Part shown: positions 4,463-19,994 of the stretch, piece by piece | Position numbering within the stretch: the stretch's first letter is position 1 | Layout of the letters: every line of letters starts with the position of its first letter | DNA from: Kiritimatiellota bacterium | GTDB lineage: Bacteria > Verrucomicrobiota > Kiritimatiellia > Kiritimatiellales > Tichowtungiaceae | Assembly (NCBI GenBank): GCA_014381785.1 | Contig: JACNKZ010000035.1 | Location: 41,361 to 105,360 of the forward strand | DNA length: 64,000 bases | Reading direction: 5' to 3' | Translations under genes and position numbers: made by a program | The notes under the pieces: generated by a model | What the model saw: only the letters and a program-made list of their open reading frames with translations | Database searches by the model: none | Told to the model about the DNA's origin: nothing

Positions 4463-4491
4463 ACAGGATGATGGATAACAGGATTATTTTT
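4463..4491. repeat. Left inverted repeat of GxxExxY cassette 2
   Basis: Tandem units ACAGGATGATGG and ACAGGATTATTTTT. The 29-bp segment is matched in inverted orientation at 5312-5340. It contains the stop codon of the enclosed minus-strand GxxExxY gene. The sequence differs from cassette 1 but the two-unit layout is the same. Confidence 0.85.
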
Positions 4492-5284
4492 TTAGAGTGA
4501 TCAATTGAACTGTCGCCCGATTAAAATTTATCCATTGAATTTGCTTGAGACTCGTATGTTCAAATATTTTCAAGAGTTGTTTTTTATAAGATTCAAAATG
4601 TCGAATGGTTGATGATATGTGCAAGCAGGTCTCTTCATCCAGACAACATAATCTCTGATGCCCGACAAGGTAGTTGTTAACAAAAATATTTACAGGTTGC
4701 ATCAAGACATCATCACCGCCAAGAAAATGACAAACCGCTTCCCGATAAAGGTTCACGTCCAAATATACGCCCCAATCTACTAACAAATTTTGAACTATTT
4801 CCCTGATAAATTTACCAGAGGGAATCTCTGTTGACCACGTTGCGTCATCGACTTCATAACTCATCCGGTTTATTGCATTCAAGGTTGTCGTTACAAACCG
4901 GTACTGAACTGATGGAGAAGAAAAATTTATTAGTTTGCCAAACTGTAAATTGCTCAACAGCAAGTAATTTAACAATTGCGACTCGTGCTGTCCGTTTAAC
5001 GTTTCAACGGCTTTCAACTCACAGATCGATCCGCAATTCATCAACGCATCGAGATAGTACGATTTTTTAAATGACTCAAAAGAAACAACGATTTCACTTT
5101 CTGAACGAACAATTAATCCACTATCCGTACAACGTCGCAACAGCTCTATCTGATACACGTGCTCGTTATAAAGCCGTCCCAGTTCATTCTGGATGGAAAA
5201 TGAATGCTTCATTACTAGATGATCGATCTCATAAAACTGAGATCTCGACATCGGAACAACATCGAATTTGCAGAGAATCGGCAT
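4484..5284 (-). CDS. GxxExxY-family protein, long form (cassette 2)
   Basis: Paralogue of the protein at 157-921, with matching blocks along the whole length. NELGRLYNEHVYQ corresponds to the GxxExxY signature. YYLDALMNCGSICELKAVE holds the D...E-x-K residues, GQHESQLLNYLLLSNLQFGK is the family's HE-x-Q-L-x-Y-L block, and LINF follows. The C-terminal half (LYREAVCHFLGG and IQWINFNRATVQL) is shared only with the first long form. Molecular role unknown. The gene lies between coaX and nadC inside 29-bp inverted repeats, and its stop codon lies in the repeat. An alternative start is the Met at residue 12. Confidence 0.75.
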   Translation of the reverse strand: MPILCKFDVVPMSRSQFYEIDHLVMKHSFSIQNELGRLYNEHVYQIELLRRCTDSGLIVRSESEIVVSFESFKKSYYLDALMNCGSICELKAVETLNGQHESQLLNYLLLSNLQFGKLINFSSPSVQYRFVTTTLNAINRMSYEVDDATWSTEIPSGKFIREIVQNLLVDWGVYLDVNLYREAVCHFLGGDDVLMQPVNIFVNNYLVGHQRLCCLDEETCLHISSTIRHFESYKKQLLKIFEHTSLKQIQWINFNRATVQLITLKK

Positions 5285-13494: not shown

Positions 13495-13571
13495 GCCCCG
13501 GTAGCTCAGCTGGACAGAGCAACGGATTCCTAATCCGTAGGTCGTAGGTTCAAATCCTATCCGGGGCACCA
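13495..13571 (+). tRNA. tRNA-Arg (CCU anticodon)
   Basis: Full cloverleaf: acceptor GCCCCGG pairs with CCGGGGC (13561-13567), D-arm GCTC...GAGC, anticodon stem CGGAT/ATCCG around loop TCCTAA (anticodon CCT at 13529-13531), T-arm with GGTTCAAATCC, and an encoded CCA. Its 3' 48 bp are the attachment site of the downstream integrative element and are duplicated at 19947-19994. Confidence 0.96.
13524..13571. other. attL-type site: 3' half of tRNA-Arg
   Basis: The 48 bp from the anticodon stem through CCA are identical to 19947-19994. Flanking bases differ on both sides, which defines the core. A tRNA 3' end is the classic target of tyrosine recombinases. Confidence 0.93.
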
Positions 13572-14307
13572 TCTAAAACCCTAATGAAACGTGCGTTTCA
13601 GTCAATAAACACAAGGGTTTGCTTTAAATCCTGTCTTTCGGGGCGTGCTGTTTCGTTCTGTGCCGTTCCGCTATAGAATAGACAAGTTAAGTCCACCTTA
13701 AGCCACGAAGATTTCAGTTAAGCCACAAATAAGCCACGGATTCAAGACGTGCAACGGGTCAGGCGGTGCCGGGTTCGTGTCTCTGCGGCCTGTTCTGTTC
13801 GTTCTGGAAGGGATTAAAAGCGGCGGTCAGTGCATACCCCCCCCTAGGGTTCAACGGCATAGGGCGTTACTATCTGACCGGATGCCGAAAGGGGGTTTGT
13901 CGATCTGGATATTATTCGGGAACATTCCCTACCCCCCCCTTCGGAAATAGGCCGGGGGGTCAGTGAGGGGGTGCAGGGGGACGCGGGTTCTGTGCGGTGA
14001 TGGTATCTAGACCTTCAGACAAGTTTTAGAAATTCGGGTTCATGCAAGGCAGGGTCTTGCCTAGACTAAAATAAACAGAAGGGGTTTAAACCTGTGGGGC
14101 TTCCCCACCCTGAATTTCCGGCTGTATGCGCCCGCGCGCGCGCGTATATGTCACTTATCAATCTCTTTTTAGGGACTCTAAAAACTACTCCCTCGCGCGC
14201 GTAGCTCAATTTCTCGGTTTTTAGAGTGTAAGTAAATTCAGGCTGAAGGGCTGTTTAGTTGCAAACCCCTTTTCAGTTCTGTAGCTTTATCCAAAAAAAG
14301 GGGCGGT
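13572..14307. other. Non-coding left end of the integrative element
   Basis: 736 bp without a convincing gene. Contains poly-C/poly-G runs (around 13835 and 13930-13980), an AAGGCA/TGCCTT-type hairpin near 14046-14062, an alternating CG tract at 14132-14143 and the 11-bp inverted repeat at 14175-14227. It could hold a replication origin or control region; nothing proves this. Confidence 0.5.
14175..14227. repeat. Perfect 11-bp inverted repeat upstream of the cargo gene
   Basis: ACTCTAAAAAC (14175-14185) and GTTTTTAGAGT (14217-14227) with a 31-bp loop containing CTCGCGCGCG. It lies 80 bp before the start of the PD-(D/E)XK-like gene. Confidence 0.75.
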
Positions 14308-15705
14308 ATGGACATTAAATTCAACAAGCTCGTTGGAACAAAAAAAACCGATTTCGATTTGCTCGTTAGTGAAAAGGTTATTTTACTTAGATCGGCAAGA
14401 CTCATTCCTCTAATCAATCCGGGGAAAGAAGAGGCTCTGACCTCAATATTTCTATCTTCACTCATCCTTATTGATGAATTTAAAAAAGATATATTTAGCA
14501 ATCTCGGGCTGCCTGCCGGGGGACAGCTGTACGTCTATACAGAAATTGTATTTCCCAATACAGACAACCTTCGCCTAGATGGACTAATACTGATTGTTTC
14601 AGGCGGGGTAATAAAAAGCGCCGCGATCTTGGAAGTGAAAAACGGAAACTCCACCTTAAATAAAGACCAGATTAGTAGTTATCTGAAGATAGCCAAATCC
14701 TTACAGATTCCGAAGCTAATCACTATTTCAAACGAGTTTGTGTCGGAGCCAACACAGAGCCCCCTGAAGAAGATTTTTGTCCCAAAAAATATAGACCTGT
14801 ATCATTTGTCTTGGCAGTTCATCCGAACCCTTGCCCGCATTCGGCTCTTTGACAATGATACGAATATTGCCGATGAAGATCAGGTTAGAATTATGAACGA
14901 GGTGGTTCTCTATTTAGAAAACGAAAAGTCAGGAGTTGGAAAACTTGGATTCTCTCAAATGAAGCCGGGTTGGAAAGCAATCGCCGAAAAAGTCACAAGC
15001 CAAGCGACAATAACAAAGAGTGATCGGGAGCTGACCGAAACCATTGAAAGTTGGATTCAGGAGGAAAGAGACATTGCTTTAAAACTGAGTTGTAGCCTTG
15101 GGACTCTGGTCAGAACAGATGCCAGAAAATTCAAGGGAGACATGCAAGCTCGCATTGATAATGACACCGAGATCTTCCTAAAAAATAAAACCCTCTCTTC
15201 GACGTTAAGCATACAGTCTGCGGTCTCAGATATTGAGATCAATGCAAACTTCACCCATAAAACTGTCGAGATGTCTGTCGCCTTGCTTCCGCCTCAGGAT
15301 AAAACACCACGGGGGCAGCTTGGTTGGATAAAAACGCAGGTAGAAAATAAACAGCTAAAAAAACGGCTAGCTGAACACCCCGAAACCCCATCCATTCTGC
15401 GAGAGCTTTTCGTAGAGTTATCATTTAAAAACGCTCGCACAAAATACCGATTTCCTTACTGCGAACTTGAAGAACAAGCGCAAGCAATCAAAGGACGTGA
15501 GATTAAAAGCGTCTCGATCATTAATGTGAAATCATTCGGAAAACATTTTGCCGCTCCCGTGAAATTTGTTGAATTAATTGAAGTTATGCTTCCGCGTTTC
15601 TATACAGATATTGCTCAGTATCTAAGGAACTGGATTCCGCCTGCACCACAGATGCCCGCGCCTAGCACAGAGGACAGCGCCCCAGTGATTGAAGACCCAG
15701 AATAG
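14308..15705 (+). CDS. Cargo protein with PD-(D/E)XK-like nuclease motif, unknown family
   Basis: 465 aa, not matched to a named family. Around residues 90-115 it reads LRLDGLILIVSGGVIKSAAI then LEVKNGNSTLNKDQISSYLK. The D in a hydrophobic strand and the E-x-K after a second strand are the spacing of a PD-(D/E)XK nuclease core, with a Q in the following helix as in several restriction-type members. The remainder is mixed alpha/beta with a long helical middle and a Pro-rich tail. It is monocistronic, preceded by GGGGCGG. It is AT-rich compared with the rest of the element and flanked by GAAGGGCTGTTT...TTGCAAAC direct repeats, so it looks like exchangeable cargo. An anti-phage role is only an inference from position and fold. 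Confidence 0.65.
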   Translation: MDIKFNKLVGTKKTDFDLLVSEKVILLRSARLIPLINPGKEEALTSIFLSSLILIDEFKKDIFSNLGLPAGGQLYVYTEIVFPNTDNLRLDGLILIVSGGVIKSAAILEVKNGNSTLNKDQISSYLKIAKSLQIPKLITISNEFVSEPTQSPLKKIFVPKNIDLYHLSWQFIRTLARIRLFDNDTNIADEDQVRIMNEVVLYLENEKSGVGKLGFSQMKPGWKAIAEKVTSQATITKSDRELTETIESWIQEERDIALKLSCSLGTLVRTDARKFKGDMQARIDNDTEIFLKNKTLSSTLSIQSAVSDIEINANFTHKTVEMSVALLPPQDKTPRGQLGWIKTQVENKQLKKRLAEHPETPSILRELFVELSFKNARTKYRFPYCELEEQAQAIKGREIKSVSIINVKSFGKHFAAPVKFVELIEVMLPRFYTDIAQYLRNWIPPAPQMPAPSTEDSAPVIEDPE

Positions 15706-15747
15706 CGAAAAGGAAAAAAACCGAAGAACCTTAAGACTGGTATAAGG

Positions 15748-15799
15748 GTTTGCATTTGCAAACAGTAGAAGGGCTGTTTCTCTATTTGCATTTGCAAAC
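15748..15799. repeat. Tandem GTTTGCATTTGCAAAC near-palindromes
   Basis: Copies at 15748-15763 and 15784-15799 (first base A). The second contains the last codons and stop of the polymerase gene. The segment GAAGGGCTGTTT between them (15768-15779) recurs at 14246-14257, again followed by TTGCAAAC. Confidence 0.75.
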
Positions 15800-16942
15800 A
15801 ACGCCCCCCGCTCCAAAGGTTTCGACTTTCACGCTCAAAGGCTGTTTAATTCGTTCGGCTTCGGCTTCCATGATCTGCCCGATCTCAAAGGCCTGTTCCG
15901 GTGTTCCGATTACATAAACGGCATCATGTACCGGGAAGCAGAGTTTCCAATGTTTGGAAGTTTCCAGTTCAATGATTTTTAAACAGGCGGCGTTCAGAAC
16001 ATCGGCAACGGTGCCTTGTATCTGCCAAGACAAGACCTGTCCACGGTGAACTCGTGCGCCCCTGTCCGCTTCAACTTTGCGCCCGGTCAGCGTGTTGGTG
16101 AATCTGCGCTGTTTGCCGTGCGGTGTTCCGGCAGTCCAAAGTTTTTCTTTGTAGGCGGTCAGGGCTTCGGCGTATGGCATGAACTCTTTTTCTGCGGGCG
16201 GGCATTGCCAAAAGCTCAAAGCCTTCAGACTGTCCGGGAAGTAGGCAAGCTGATTGATCTTTCGCTTTGCGCTGTCCCGGTCGATTCCTAGCAGGTCGGC
16301 GGCGGTCTGGTAGGGGTCGGCGGTGAAGCTGTATCCGATAGCCTTCTGAATCAGGGTTGGTTCTGCGGCTTTGTAGTCGGCATCAATAAGCACCTGCCCC
16401 GGCTGAAGTCCGGCGCAAAGCTTTTCTGTTCGCTTGTCTTCGCCGTGCCCCTGAACGTGCGGCTGTCCGGATGAAACCCGTCCGGTTTTTAAGACGTTCC
16501 ACGAAGGGCGGCAGGCGGGGGCATTGCCATAAACAAACGTCCGGCTGTAAAGAAGCCTTGCCAGTTCGCGGGCATCGGCGGGGGCGGTGTCTATCAGCTT
16601 GCGGCTTGGTTCATCGTTCATGAGTTCGCGCAGGCTGTAGCGGCGCAGGCGTGTAGCTTCTTTGCCGTTCACAATCGCTTTACCGATCTCGACTTCACAA
16701 AGCACCCCTGAAAGAGAATCCAGAACGGTTTTGAGGCGTGAAGGATTCCTGCACCCGGCGGCGGCAAGTTCGGGATAGTCGGCGGTTATCGGCTGACACA
16801 ATCCAAGGTTTTTTCTTTCCAAGGGTTGGAAGGCGCAAAGATAAAAACTCAAAGCACCGTTGTTTAACTGGTTTCTGTATCGCTTGCGAACGTAGTTTTC
16901 CAGTTTAGCGGCCTGCTCAAAATCAAAGGCTTGCGGTTTCAT
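15782..16942 (-). CDS. Minimal family A DNA polymerase
   Basis: 386 aa covering only a palm/fingers-type core. Motif A is LIDADYKAAEPTLIQKA (catalytic Asp about 189, compare DYSQIELR). Motif B is reduced to DSAKRKINQLAYF (about 223-235), the block WQIQGTVADVLNAACLKI (about 306-323) matches the QGTAADI region of PolA enzymes, and motif C is CFPVHDAVYV (about 335-344, metal-binding H-D). No 5' nuclease or 3'-5' exonuclease domain precedes it. It is the last gene of the element's operon, overlapping the zinc-finger gene by 20 bp, with GGGGAG before the ATG. It probably helps copy or repair the element's DNA. Two TTCCAA palindromes (15944-15960, 16816-16832) lie in its frame. Confidence 0.82.
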   Translation of the reverse strand: MKPQAFDFEQAAKLENYVRKRYRNQLNNGALSFYLCAFQPLERKNLGLCQPITADYPELAAAGCRNPSRLKTVLDSLSGVLCEVEIGKAIVNGKEATRLRRYSLRELMNDEPSRKLIDTAPADARELARLLYSRTFVYGNAPACRPSWNVLKTGRVSSGQPHVQGHGEDKRTEKLCAGLQPGQVLIDADYKAAEPTLIQKAIGYSFTADPYQTAADLLGIDRDSAKRKINQLAYFPDSLKALSFWQCPPAEKEFMPYAEALTAYKEKLWTAGTPHGKQRRFTNTLTGRKVEADRGARVHRGQVLSWQIQGTVADVLNAACLKIIELETSKHWKLCFPVHDAVYVIGTPEQAFEIGQIMEAEAERIKQPLSVKVETFGAGGVVCKCK

Positions 16943-17414
16943 GGACTCCCCTTTTGCCTTTTCGGGCTTTGAGTTCTTCTATCGCTTCAGCTTCGGCGCA
17001 TGAAATAAACGGCTTTCCTTTGCGCAACGTTCCGCAGAAGTAGCAGGCTTGCGCGGTCAGTCCCTTCGGGGTCTTATAAAACTCCGTTTCTGTCATTCGG
17101 TCACATACCGGGCACCATGCCTTCAGCTGCACGCCCAAGCGGTGAAACCGTGAACCCCTGAAAACCTTTTCGGATAGCAGAAGCCCGGCAAGGTCTCCGT
17201 TTATCATATTGCCCCAAGCGGTGACGGCCTGCCGCTGTAGGATTCGCTTTTCTTTATGCGTGAACGTGATTCCTTCCGGCGGCACAAGATAGGCGCGGAA
17301 ACCTTCTTGTTTTACGATCTTCGCTTGAATGATTTTCCCGGTCAGTGTCTCGATCTCGACAAGGGCGCGGACGTTTCCGGCATCGGTCAGGGGTTTGACT
17401 TTAAGCAGGTTCAC
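16923..17414 (-). CDS. Zinc-finger protein of the integrative element
   Basis: Starting at GTG 17414 gives 163 aa. A strong GGGGGG ribosome-binding site precedes it and its GTGA overlaps the upstream stop by 4 bp; the ATG at 17450 would overlap by 40 bp and is less likely. The N-terminal half (LLKVKPLTDAGNVRALVEIE, AKIVKQEGFRAYLVPP) has an SpoVG-like feel but is not certain. The C-terminal half has two CxxC pairs (CPVCDRMTETEFYKT...ACYFCG), a likely zinc ribbon. Followed directly by the polymerase gene, so it may act in DNA binding or replication. Confidence 0.7.
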   Translation of the reverse strand: MNLLKVKPLTDAGNVRALVEIETLTGKIIQAKIVKQEGFRAYLVPPEGITFTHKEKRILQRQAVTAWGNMINGDLAGLLLSEKVFRGSRFHRLGVQLKAWCPVCDRMTETEFYKTPKGLTAQACYFCGTLRKGKPFISCAEAEAIEELKARKGKRGVHETASL

Positions 17415-17869
17415 TTTGCACCCCCCTCGATAACTTTTATGTCCGGCCATAACGGGATGTTTATTTCCTCAAAGCTCGAACAGGTGCAAACGGCGCAGGG
17501 AGTAGAACATTTACAAGCGGACACGGGCGGGGGAGAAGCGGGGGGCGGCCTTTTCTTTGGCTTCTTGACCAATGAGTAACCCTGAAGGTCTAGCAGGCTT
17601 TCCCGTGCCGTAAACAGGCCTGTGAGTTCGTCGCAAGTCGCATTGAACTTTTTCAGCCAGTCGCGCAGGTCTTTGGCCTGTTCGTTTGCCGTCCGGCGGG
17701 CAAGCTCTTTGACGGCCTGTGCCAGTTGCGAATAGTAAGAATATTCGTATTCGACGGTTTCAATGCCCTTGCGGGTTTTGCGCTTCGGTTTCGTGTGGTC
17801 AAACAAAACATAATTGTTCGTGTCCAGAATCCCGATTGAATAGCTTCCTGCGGTGCATAGGGTTTTCAT
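17411..17869 (-). CDS. Hypothetical protein of the integrative element
   Basis: 152 aa, family not recognised. The N-terminus (SYSIGILDTNNYVLFDHTKP) is followed by a helical middle and a Pro/Cys-rich tail with CKCSTPCAVCTC, which could bind metal. ATGA-type overlap with the AlpA-like gene and GTGA overlap with the next gene show it belongs to one operon. A GGGGG ribosome-binding site precedes the ATG. Confidence 0.7.
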   Translation of the reverse strand: MKTLCTAGSYSIGILDTNNYVLFDHTKPKRKTRKGIETVEYEYSYYSQLAQAVKELARRTANEQAKDLRDWLKKFNATCDELTGLFTARESLLDLQGYSLVKKPKKRPPPASPPPVSACKCSTPCAVCTCSSFEEINIPLWPDIKVIEGGAK

Positions 17870-18138
17870 TACGCAACCCCCCGCTGTGCAAGAAGGGCTT
17901 CCACCTGTTCAGCAGGATAACGAACAGTCCGGGGTGTAATCTTGACGGGATGCAAAAGCTTCCCATCATATCTTTTGATTGAGCCGCTATGCAGGCAAAG
18001 AATATCTGCAACCTGCTTCCGTGTGAGTAATCGCGGCTTGCCCTCTGCGGGCTGTTTGATTGCGGAAAGAATCCGCTTCTTCTCTTCGGGTGTGGTGTCG
18101 CTCAAAACTAAAGTTGAGCCTGCTTCTGTGATGTTCAT
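17869..18138 (-). CDS. AlpA/MerR-like helix-turn-helix regulator (candidate excisionase)
   Basis: 89 aa from the ATG at 18138, which has GGGAG 7 bp upstream; another ATG at 18150 adds 4 residues. The segment RLLTRKQVADILCLHSGSIK plus RYDGKLLHPVKITPRTVRYPAEQVEALL is the usual short winged-HTH of AlpA/Xis-type proteins. It is the first gene of the operon and divergent in sequence from the integrase, with the regulatory region in between. Probable roles are excision control or operon regulation. Confidence 0.82.
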   Translation of the reverse strand: MNITEAGSTLVLSDTTPEEKKRILSAIKQPAEGKPRLLTRKQVADILCLHSGSIKRYDGKLLHPVKITPRTVRYPAEQVEALLAQRGVA

Positions 18139-18187
18139 GACTGCTCCCATTTAAGGTTTTATGGTTAAACGGGACTGCGCCCCGTGT

Positions 18188-18261
18188 TCCAAACCATTCG
18201 GAACAGTCACTTAATATATACACAAATTTACCTACGTCTACAAGCTTATTATGCGCATAAT
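18188..18261. promoter_or_regulatory. Regulatory region with palindromes before the AlpA-like gene
   Basis: A perfect 14-bp palindrome ATTATGCGCATAAT (18248-18261) and the imperfect GTTCC...GGAAC element (18188-18206, a relative of the TTCCAA palindrome) flank an AT-rich stretch. That stretch has a possible -10 (TATATT on the minus strand). Confidence 0.45.
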
Positions 18262-18365
18262 GCGCACAACGGCACATAAGCCAATGTTTGCAGGGGTTTC
18301 GTGATGCAAAATAAATTTCTTTAAATTTATTAAATCGCGCCTTCCAGCGCAATCTAAGCAACGTT

Positions 18366-19814
18366 TCAGCTCATATCCGCCATGCCGATCAGTTCGGCTT
18401 TTACCTGTTTCCAGTTTTTGGCGGTCATTCCTTGAAGCTTTTCGAGAATCCACGGCGGCACCGTCCGGGCGGTCGGTTCGGGTTCGTTCAGAGTCAGCAC
18501 CCCCGCAGTCCGGCGGGCGGTCTCTTCGTTTACGTGCGTATAGTGTGCGGTCATTGCCGGGTTGCTGTGCCCTATCACGTTCTGAATGACGGCTTGCGGA
18601 GTTCCGGCGGCGGCGTGCAATGAAACCCATGTATGGCGCAGGCTATGAAAACCAACTTCAACAACGGCGCGTTTGCAGGTCGGCTTTGCGCCTTTCTTCC
18701 CGCCCTCTTCCCATGCCTTCAGCGCGGCTTCGTAGGCTTCTTTTCCGGTGCCTTCTTTGACGGTCTGAATCCCGCAGGCTTTGAAGTGTTCCTGAATCTC
18801 GTTTGTAATATCTCCCCGGCGTGTATAAGAGCCTTTGCTGTTCTGGTGCGTGTAGCTTGCGGCGTAGTCCGGCAGAACATACCCTTTGCGTTTGGTCTTT
18901 GGAGTTTCGGAAAGCTTGGCAGTCAGGGCGGCGGGAATACCGATCAGAACAGGCTTGCCGTTCTTCGCGGTCTTGTTCGGCACCCGGCGAATCAGTCCAC
19001 GGTCTAAATCGACTTCTCCCCAAGTCAGGGTGCAACAATCCCCCAAGCGCAGGCCTGTGAAGGTGCCGATACAAAGCAGGGTTTGCAGGTCGCCCATTGC
19101 GGCTTCCAGAATCTCTTTGAGTTCGGCAAGGGTCAGTTCCCGGCGGCTGTTCGTTTTAAGATTCTTGCGGCGTATCTTTTCAAACGGGTTTGCTTTCAGT
19201 CCGGCGGTATCCTGTAGCACCCGGCAGAACAGCTTTAAAAAGCCGATATGCTTGTTGAAGGTGTTAGGGCTTGCCGTTCCCCCGTTCAGGGTCGCGGCGT
19301 AGTCTTGCGCGTGTTTCGGGGTAATATCGCGCAGGGCTTGCGGCTTCGGGTCTTGTGCAGAAAGCCACTTTTCAAAGCGTTGCCAGTGTCCGGCATAATC
19401 GCGCAGGGTATCGTCTCCGGTGTCGGGGCGGTCAGGGCTTTGCAGATACGTTTCCCAAGCTTCGGTAATCGGCAGAACCGGGGCGGCTTCTTCAATGGCC
19501 TGTTCCGTTTCTGTTTTGGCTTGTGCATAGGCGGCGGTCAAAGATTGAAGCTGTGCTTCCCGATTTCCTGCCCGCAGGGGGGCGGTCAGTCGCTTGCGTT
19601 CGGCTTCGGCTTTCCGCAGGTCGGTGATTGGTTTCCCGTCCGTCCCGGTCAGGGCGTGCCGTTGCCGTTTGCCTTCGATGGTGTATTGAATCCAGAAAAC
19701 CCCCGGCGTTTTAGAATCAAAGCGGTATTCCTGCCCGTCTTTGCTTCGTTTGTACAGTCTCCCGGTACCGCGTGCGCTTCTGGTCTTTGCTTTTGACTTG
19801 TCAGCCTTTGCCAT
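18366..19814 (-). CDS. Tyrosine recombinase (integrase)
   Basis: 482 aa. The catalytic residues are recognisable: Arg in GTFTGLRLGDCCTL, the HxxR box in FHSLRHTWVSLHAAAG, His in VIGHSNPAMTAHYTHV and the nucleophile Tyr in the same block. The N-terminus contains an SAM-like core-binding domain (about 120-230) and an AP2-like arm-binding region (YRFDSKTPGVFWIQY). AGGGGG precedes the ATG. It lies 130 bp from the right attachment site and presumably catalyses integration into the tRNA-Arg 3' end. Confidence 0.95.
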   Translation of the reverse strand: MAKADKSKAKTRSARGTGRLYKRSKDGQEYRFDSKTPGVFWIQYTIEGKRQRHALTGTDGKPITDLRKAEAERKRLTAPLRAGNREAQLQSLTAAYAQAKTETEQAIEEAAPVLPITEAWETYLQSPDRPDTGDDTLRDYAGHWQRFEKWLSAQDPKPQALRDITPKHAQDYAATLNGGTASPNTFNKHIGFLKLFCRVLQDTAGLKANPFEKIRRKNLKTNSRRELTLAELKEILEAAMGDLQTLLCIGTFTGLRLGDCCTLTWGEVDLDRGLIRRVPNKTAKNGKPVLIGIPAALTAKLSETPKTKRKGYVLPDYAASYTHQNSKGSYTRRGDITNEIQEHFKACGIQTVKEGTGKEAYEAALKAWEEGGKKGAKPTCKRAVVEVGFHSLRHTWVSLHAAAGTPQAVIQNVIGHSNPAMTAHYTHVNEETARRTAGVLTLNEPEPTARTVPPWILEKLQGMTAKNWKQVKAELIGMADMS

Positions 19815-19946
19815 GATGAACCCCCTTGTTTGTATCTGCTCCGAAGCGTTCCCGAAAAGCAGAGAATAAACAAGTTAAATCCACCTTAAGCCACGAAGGT
19901 TTTCACCATAACCCTATGAATAAAGGCTAAAGTCTGTTTTTAAAAT

Positions 19947-19994
19947 GGATTCCTAATCCGTAGGTCGTAGGTTCAAATCCTATCCGGGGCACCA
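19947..19994. other. attR-type site: duplicated tRNA-Arg 3' half
   Basis: 48 bp identical to 13524-13571. There is no 5' half, so it is not a second tRNA gene. Confidence 0.93.

Follow-up and report, generated by a model that had tools for sequence, protein, structure and literature searches.

In the window, the 64,000-nt stretch of Kiritimatiellota DNA analysed here, a gene for a 465-aa protein lies at one end of a small integrated island. The initial annotation read it as a PD-(D/E)XK-like cargo gene between direct repeats, in an exchangeable defence slot. This locus raises the question of what the cargo gene encodes, whether the space that it occupies is exchanged between islands, whether the repeats border that space, and what the protein does for the cell or the island.

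Architecture of the island

The island is 6.4 kb long (13521–19994), lies in tRNA-Arg(CCT), and is bounded by 51-nt attachment repeats (Table 1). Two inner 40-nt repeats are probably integrase arm sites; the core that they share, TTCGTGGCTTAAGGTGGA, is found again close to the ends of several sister islands. The integrase, excisionase (Xis), orf152, orf175, and polymerase-like genes form a five-gene operon (int-xis-orf-orf-polA), and the cargo gene, an intact open reading frame, is the final gene ahead of the tRNA end. The strands of the reading frames confirmed that it is transcribed against this operon. It is also AT-richer than the rest of the island, as had been noted, with 42.6% GC against 51–56% (int, 0.564; xis, 0.511; orf152, 0.519; orf175, 0.528; polA, 0.539; entire window, 0.542).

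Table 1 Features of the island and of the cargo gene in the window.
Feature	Position	Strand	Basis or remark
tRNA-Arg(CCT), serving as island attachment site	13495–13571	+	ARAGORN; Rfam tRNA, 73 bits
51-nt attachment repeat, tRNA side (3' end of the tRNA)	13521–13571	+	Direct repeat D1, 98% identical to 19944–19994
Inner 40-nt repeat, tRNA side, probable integrase arm site	13675–13714	+	D3, 93% identical to 19863–19902
First composite repeat copy (GAAGGGCTGTTTAGTTGCAAAC), upstream of the cargo gene; holds half an iteron	14245–14266	+	Repeat search
Cargo gene, 465-aa PD-(D/E)XK protein with a second, C-terminal domain	14308–15705	+	ORF, alignment, model
PD-(D/E)XK domain, residues 26–170; D91, E109, K111, Q121, and Y125 invariant	14383–14817	+	Alignment, model
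C-terminal domain, residues 232–450; confident model, weakly YbjN/ExsC-like	15001–15657	+	Separate fold
Pair of palindromic iterons GTTTGCAAATGCAAAC with 36-bp spacing, then CTTATACCAG; downstream of the polymerase gene	15748–15799	-	Spacing conserved in sister islands
Mini family-A DNA polymerase-like replication gene	15782–16942	-	PF00476, E = 6.6e-7, below curated cut-off; PHROG DNA polymerase, 7.8e-11
orf175, conserved island gene	16923–17450	-	Sister-island homologues 63–66% identical
orf152, conserved island gene	17411–17869	-	G005 homologue 76% identical; weak PHROG replication-initiation match, 0.0022
Excisionase/AlpA-like HTH_17 protein (Xis)	17869–18150	-	PHROG excisionase, 7.8e-8; HTH_17 PF12728, E = 0.009, below curated cut-off
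Tyrosine recombinase (integrase)	18366–19814	-	PF00589, 4.2e-17; phrog_1, 1e-44
Inner 40-nt repeat, integrase side, probable integrase arm site	19863–19902	+	D3
51-nt attachment repeat, integrase side	19944–19994	+	Direct repeat D1; same stretch beside the G005 integrase

The polymerase-like protein has an N-terminal region unlike polymerase. Polymerase chemistry is possible for this protein because D189 (motif-A-like), K226, and H339-D340 (motif C, as HDA or HDS) are invariant in alignment A5.

An Rfam search of the window returned no RNA other than tRNA, full and partial. When the tRNA-Arg locus was compared within the genus, copies of the tRNA were present, but the tested flanks showed no synteny to the window, and the comparison yielded no clean empty site. 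Between the cargo gene and the tRNA end there is a hairpin with a GC-rich loop and an 11-bp stem (ACTCTAAAAAC/GTTTTTAGAGT; 14172–14228), the plus strand of which is more stable than shuffles (z -2.9). An AbiEi/AbiEii toxin-antitoxin pair (PF13338, PF08843; 11461–13043) adjoins the island just beyond its tRNA end, and two PDDEXK_3 (GxxExxY-type) genes lie close together elsewhere outside the island (157–921 and 4484–5284).

The cargo gene encodes a PD-(D/E)XK protein

The D...E-x-K core that had been pointed out in the protein proved to be real. In the family alignment (up to 86 members with invariant catalytic residues, from at least eight phyla), D91 was conserved in 85/85, E109 in 86/86, and K111 in 86/86 sequences, that is, in all members covering the column. 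E41, E79, Q121, and Y125 were likewise invariant, and the seven active-site positions were found in 84–86 of the 86 sequences, which are all those covering them. The active site of the cargo protein itself (D91, E109-x-K111, Q121, and Y125) is intact.

An AlphaFold2 model of the cargo protein, predicted from an input of 46 sequences, had a pLDDT of 92.6 and a pTM of 0.87 and contained the nuclease core that structure prediction had been expected to reveal (a helix, a mixed sheet that carries the catalytic strands, a second helix, and a strand: H41–54, E73–81, E90–98, E101–110, H119–131, and E136–141). Restriction endonucleases and PD-(D/E)XK effectors were its best matches. Among PDB structures these were EcoT38I (probability 0.95), Can2 (0.82), Card1 (0.77), and BamHI (0.51), with McrC also ranking behind EcoT38I; the top viral structure match (BFVD) was a PD-(D/E)XK protein (probability 1.00). 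No Foldseek match to the PDB had an E-value below 0.001; the structural E-values are modest because the shared part is the core only, and outside this core the model matches the restriction-endonuclease fold weakly. The C-terminal domain, when folded alone, reached a pLDDT of 91.0. We claim no fold for this domain, for which the matches were weak and either YbjN/ExsC-like (the commonest, chaperone-type) or Y-family-polymerase-like.

These results, on catalytic residues and core fold alike, support the assignment of the cargo protein to the PD-(D/E)XK superfamily, and a metal-dependent nuclease activity is what we infer from alignment and model. It shares with EcoT38I, Can2/Card1, McrC, and VRR-NUC the core fold and the pattern of E, D, E-x-K, and Q..Y of a predicted metal-dependent nuclease. 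It differs from them in its C-terminal domain, which has no confident fold match, and in the lack of a methylase, CARF sensor, or McrB GTPase partner; unlike the named PD-(D/E)XK nucleases, it falls outside any named Pfam, NCBIfam, or PADLOC family at the sequence level.

The same data bear on the idea that the gene is degenerate or silent cargo without function, which we regard as very improbable. No sigma-70 promoter was recognisable above chance upstream of the gene, and the window island lacks a gene that overlaps the integrase stop by 4 nt in several sister islands (L127, L128, L130, L131, and L014, and L015 if read from an internal ATG); a remnant of it was looked for in the window and not found. 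Both points would suit a silent gene, but the frame is intact, the catalytic residues are all kept, and the protein is 66% identical over its full length to its closest relative, that of genome G011 of the same genus.

The slot between the replication gene and the distal attachment site is variable

A close homologue of the integrase was found in 19 of 58 related genomes, and a homologue of the polymerase in five of the 58, the window's own genome included. The sister-island integrases compared were 57–80% identical to that of the window. Nine sister islands are bounded by repeats in tRNA genes (Leu, Met, Ser, Thr, and Arg). The tRNA genes used are Met (L127 and L131), Arg (L128 and L135), Ser (L133), Leu (L134 and L137), and Thr (L012); an island of the same integrase lineage in genome G009 occupies tRNA-Leu with a 58-nt repeat and extends over 22.9 kb (L129 and L144; C1, about 1079249–1102120). 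The island of G005 uses the same tRNA-Arg 51-nt site as the window island. Since its integrase region is about 80% identical to that of the window but its polymerase only 32%, modules are exchanged between islands. Elsewhere, L128:3189–4509 and L137:4100–5438 (integrase on the plus strand) hold nearly identical replication genes with different integrases and tRNA sites, which also shows module exchange.

The slot, defined as the space from the replication gene to the distal attachment site, held different genes in different islands. In G009 it contains genes for an HNH protein, HsdR, a metallo-beta-lactamase-like protein, PDC-S11, an LmuB-like (Lamassu-B) ATPase, HsdS, and HsdM, which amount to a complete type I restriction-modification (RM) system (HsdR, E = 0) with further genes; like the cargo gene of the window, they are opposite in strand to the integrase. 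The slot of G010 holds HsdM (PADLOC, E = 0; PF02384) and runs to the contig end. An ERCC4 nuclease was found in the slot of G031, a serine recombinase in L133/L134, small membrane proteins in L127 and L130, and two genes of unrecognised type in L012, and several other sister islands have no recognised defence gene there. The cargo gene of the window was absent from all sister islands and from the same-genus genomes holding them.

The proposal of an exchangeable slot was thus borne out: different genes stand at the position of the cargo gene in the sister islands, and a comparison with these islands, put forward as a check, showed that the cargo gene is not a constant gene of the slot. The defensive character ascribed to the slot is backed by the type I RM system, LmuB, PDC-S11, and HNH in G009 and by HsdM in G010. 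Taken across the islands compared, gene content supports a slot that is variable and often, but not always, defensive.

The flanking repeats and the iterons

Two copies of GAAGGGCTGTTT(n)TTGCAAAC flank the cargo gene, in agreement with the placement of the gene between direct repeats, although the first GAAGGGCTGTTT lies at 14245 and not, as annotated, at 14246; the second lies at 15768. The composite GAAGGGCTGTTT-N(0–14)-TTGCAAAC occurs exactly twice in the 2.2-Mb genome, both times flanking the cargo gene. The copies differ in spacing (22 versus 32 nt), so that there is no exact long repeat. About 0.4% of Markov shuffles produced a 12-nt match between the 160-bp flanks. When the flanks were aligned locally with gaps, the result was not strong (score 28, matched by 15 of 2000 shuffles), and the best pair in it was not the composite repeat.

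The second copy (15768–15799) is located inside the iteron pair and overlaps the end of the polymerase gene. On the minus strand, TGTTTGCAAATGCAAATAGAGAAACAGCCCTTCTACTGTTTGCAAATGCAAACCCTTATACCAGTC follows the polymerase gene, and the genes of the two polymerase homologues of highest identity (45% and 43%) are each followed by a palindrome pair of their own and then by TTATTACCAGT. The spacing of the pair is 36 bp in the window and in G028 (L012) and 37 bp in G031 (L013); G005 has a pair of different sequence with a spacing of 45 bp. Palindromes of the same or nearly the same spacing thus follow these polymerase homologues, and therefore the second repeat is part of a conserved feature of the backbone.

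On account of this iteron pair, conserved with a spacing of 36–37 bp in G028 and G031, we rejected the repeats as borders of the slot. The earlier suggestion that they mark the borders of exchange also fails on the sister islands, which lack the repeat. A related reading takes the two GAAGGGCTGTTT repeats as the recombination ends of a precisely excisable cargo cassette. The direct orientation of the repeats and the occurrence of the composite just twice in the genome, both times beside the cargo gene, would suit such a cassette, but the second copy belongs to a conserved element after the polymerase gene, and cargo relatives in other genomes have no such repeat at their borders. A repeat this short is also unfit for efficient homologous recombination. 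We consider the cassette unlikely.

The iteron array at 15748–15799 is most simply a putative replication origin or Rep-binding site. It possibly doubles as a terminator: the predicted folding of 15700–15800 is more stable than that of shuffles on both strands (z -2.9 and -4.5). The polymerase-like protein belongs to a family of proteins of about 390 aa that combine an N-terminal region with a reduced family-A polymerase; its members are encoded at 15782–16942 of the window, L012:6486–7643, L013:18–1037, L014:2095–3345, and L015:7386–8612, and each gene is followed by repeats of its own (palindromic iterons or repeat pairs), spaced 36–45 bp where measured. By its sequence features this family resembles a replication initiator of polymerase type from satellite-like islands.

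The cargo gene neighbours the replication gene and the putative origin iterons, which could also mean that the nuclease serves the island, for example by processing replication intermediates or by attacking competing elements or a helper phage genome. Many satellites have such genes, directed against rival elements. The listing of satellites as defence carriers (PMC8791490) speaks on the same side. However, the cargo gene is dispensable for the backbone because no sister island has it, and most of its relatives lie outside such islands. A role in the service of the island is therefore quite improbable in our judgement.

The protein family and its TerD fusions

Searches with the cargo protein and its family gave no match in Pfam, NCBIfam, PADLOC, PHROGs, or PDB sequences, and no PADLOC defence model matched the cargo protein at E-values up to 5. 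No cargo relative was found in phage records or IMG/VR. A family profile built from five relatives detected the family at at least 300 loci in at least eight phyla. Within the phylum the occurrence is patchy (5 of 388 genomes).

Two forms of the family were found, a solo form of about 450–500 aa, which is the usual one, and a TerD-fused form of about 650–770 aa, which is often that of actinobacterial members. The fused relatives carry TerD at the N-terminus (PF02342, E 1e-41 to 1e-44), a domain absent from the window protein in Pfam searches. For example, the C-terminal 430 residues of actinobacterial "TerD family proteins" such as WP_241065045.1 of Rhodococcus plasmid pLP337 align, as homologues, with almost all of the cargo protein (E 6e-26 at 25% identity). 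Unlike these proteins, the window protein was placed by a tree of the family in a well-supported TerD-less clade (Verrucomicrobiota, Cloacimonadota, Bacteroidota, and Gammaproteobacteria); the TerD fusions fell in actinobacterial clades. On pLP337 (L003:817–8272), the gene for the TerD-nuclease fusion lies near genes for a ThiF (E1-like) protein, a JAB peptidase, and a DUF6602 protein, possibly a ubiquitin-like or CBASS-like defence cassette.

The homologue in G011 sits between a DUF2851-like gene and transporter genes (assigned by eye), on a 9.7-kb contig in which no integrase, tRNA, or other island genes were found. In G297 the homologue has a pair of type II RM genes and an HNH nuclease gene as neighbours. 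Around 35 solo relatives there was no recurrent partner gene; the neighbours were mostly unrelated, and defence matches among 120 neighbours of solo relatives were scattered.

In Nocardiaceae and related actinobacteria, the tree suggests that inheritance of the TerD-fused form is largely vertical, and in this respect it resembles a stress gene more than it does a defence gene that moves quickly. The protein could be a nuclease of the Ter network for general stress or DNA repair, acting on damaged DNA or on a nucleotide-related signal; TerD would be the sensor in actinobacteria, and presence in the island would be incidental hitch-hiking. The TerD domain in part of the family, the agreement of the TerD-fused clade with Nocardiaceae taxonomy, the lack of a conserved defence-specific partner, and the proposal that TerD binds specialised nucleotide derivatives (PMC7159879) all speak for this. 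However, the clade of the window protein is patchy and without TerD, the sister slots hold RM and Lamassu-type genes, and TerD systems have themselves been proposed to act against phages (PMC3710099). We take a stress or repair role to be a doubtful explanation, though one of some weight.

Comparison with known satellites and defence hotspots

PICMI satellites of Vibrionaceae, the nearest of the described systems, consist of an integrase, an ATGA-overlapping gene, AlpA, a small gene, a primase, a defence hotspot, and a distal attachment site (PMC10803314). RM, retron, DRT, and PARIS systems are found between their prim gene and the distal attachment gene, as is the single-gene defence up2 (PMC10803314). 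The window island resembles them in the order integrase, putative AlpA/HTH_17 gene, small gene, replication gene, variable slot, and distal attachment site, in small size without capsid genes, and in a lone slot gene, which can be defensive. In contrast, its replication gene is family-A polymerase-like, sister islands also having DnaB/CHC2 primase-helicase, and not DUF3987/DUF5906; attachment is to tRNA genes (tRNA-Arg(CCT) in the window) and not downstream of fis; the host belongs to Verrucomicrobiota; and the ATGA-overlapping gene is absent from the window copy. PICMI are excised and packaged by a helper phage; the window island is not known to have a helper phage or to be packaged. Of the features that define PICMI, the integrase is present (Table 1), AlpA (PF05930 or PF12728) may be represented by the sub-threshold HTH_17 match and the excisionase match, and the DUF3987/DUF5906 primase and the fis site are missing. 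Because of these two, the window island is not a PICMI by its defining genes, yet it may be PICMI-like in working.

The hotspots of P4-like satellites and P2-like prophages (PMC9122126) are similar in being compact loci between conserved genes with a high turnover of anti-phage genes. They differ in that the window island has no P4 or P2 genes and is bordered at its slot by the replication gene and the tRNA attachment site. Our literature search found no such defence hotspot for this phylum.

Proposed function of the cargo gene

The reading that we prefer, with somewhat better than even confidence, is that the cargo gene encodes a one-protein anti-phage nuclease and occupies the variable slot of an integrative island that is small and satellite-like. 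It agrees with the invariant catalytic residues, the structural matches, the tRNA-bounded island, the turnover of the slot, the RM and Lamassu-type genes in sister islands, the patchy occurrence of the family, the RM and HNH genes beside the G297 homologue, and the PICMI-type layout. Against it stand the lack of a PADLOC, Pfam, or NCBIfam match, the mostly unrelated neighbours of solo relatives, the G011 homologue without integrase or tRNA, the largely vertical TerD-fused form, and the absence of a Foldseek E-value below 0.001 against the PDB. Anti-phage function, trigger, and catalytic activity are what we infer for this protein.

In this anti-phage scheme, the backbone (integrase, Xis, small genes, replication gene, and iterons) would integrate at tRNA-Arg(CCT), and the space from the replication gene to the distal attachment site would take up varied genes, repeatedly anti-phage systems. 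On infection, the N-terminal PD-(D/E)XK domain would cut the invading (or all) DNA and so protect the cell and the island, with the C-terminal domain probably sensing or regulating. Self DNA would be spared if the enzyme recognises modified or unusual DNA or stays inactive until triggered, perhaps via the C-terminal domain. The cargo gene is solo and has no methylase partner; because a modification partner is lacking, a modification-dependent (type IV-like) or infection-activated mode is most likely. In actinobacteria, TerD would add a second switch.

More tentatively, and at less than even confidence, we propose that single-gene PD-(D/E)XK effectors with a C-terminal sensor are anti-phage cargo of minimal tRNA-integrating satellites of Verrucomicrobiota whose replication uses a mini family-A polymerase together with an iteron origin, and are coupled to TerD sensing in actinobacteria, the family being unnamed and the satellite lineage undescribed. 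If this is true, a family that has at least 300 sampled loci but no entry in the Pfam, NCBIfam, or PADLOC libraries would act as a new immunity effector of the one-gene kind, and its solo and TerD-fused forms would lend themselves to a natural comparison of the ways in which such nucleases are activated. The sister islands would then offer an anchor for defence discovery, from the replication gene to the tRNA attachment site, and would extend the PICMI-type layout beyond Vibrionaceae.
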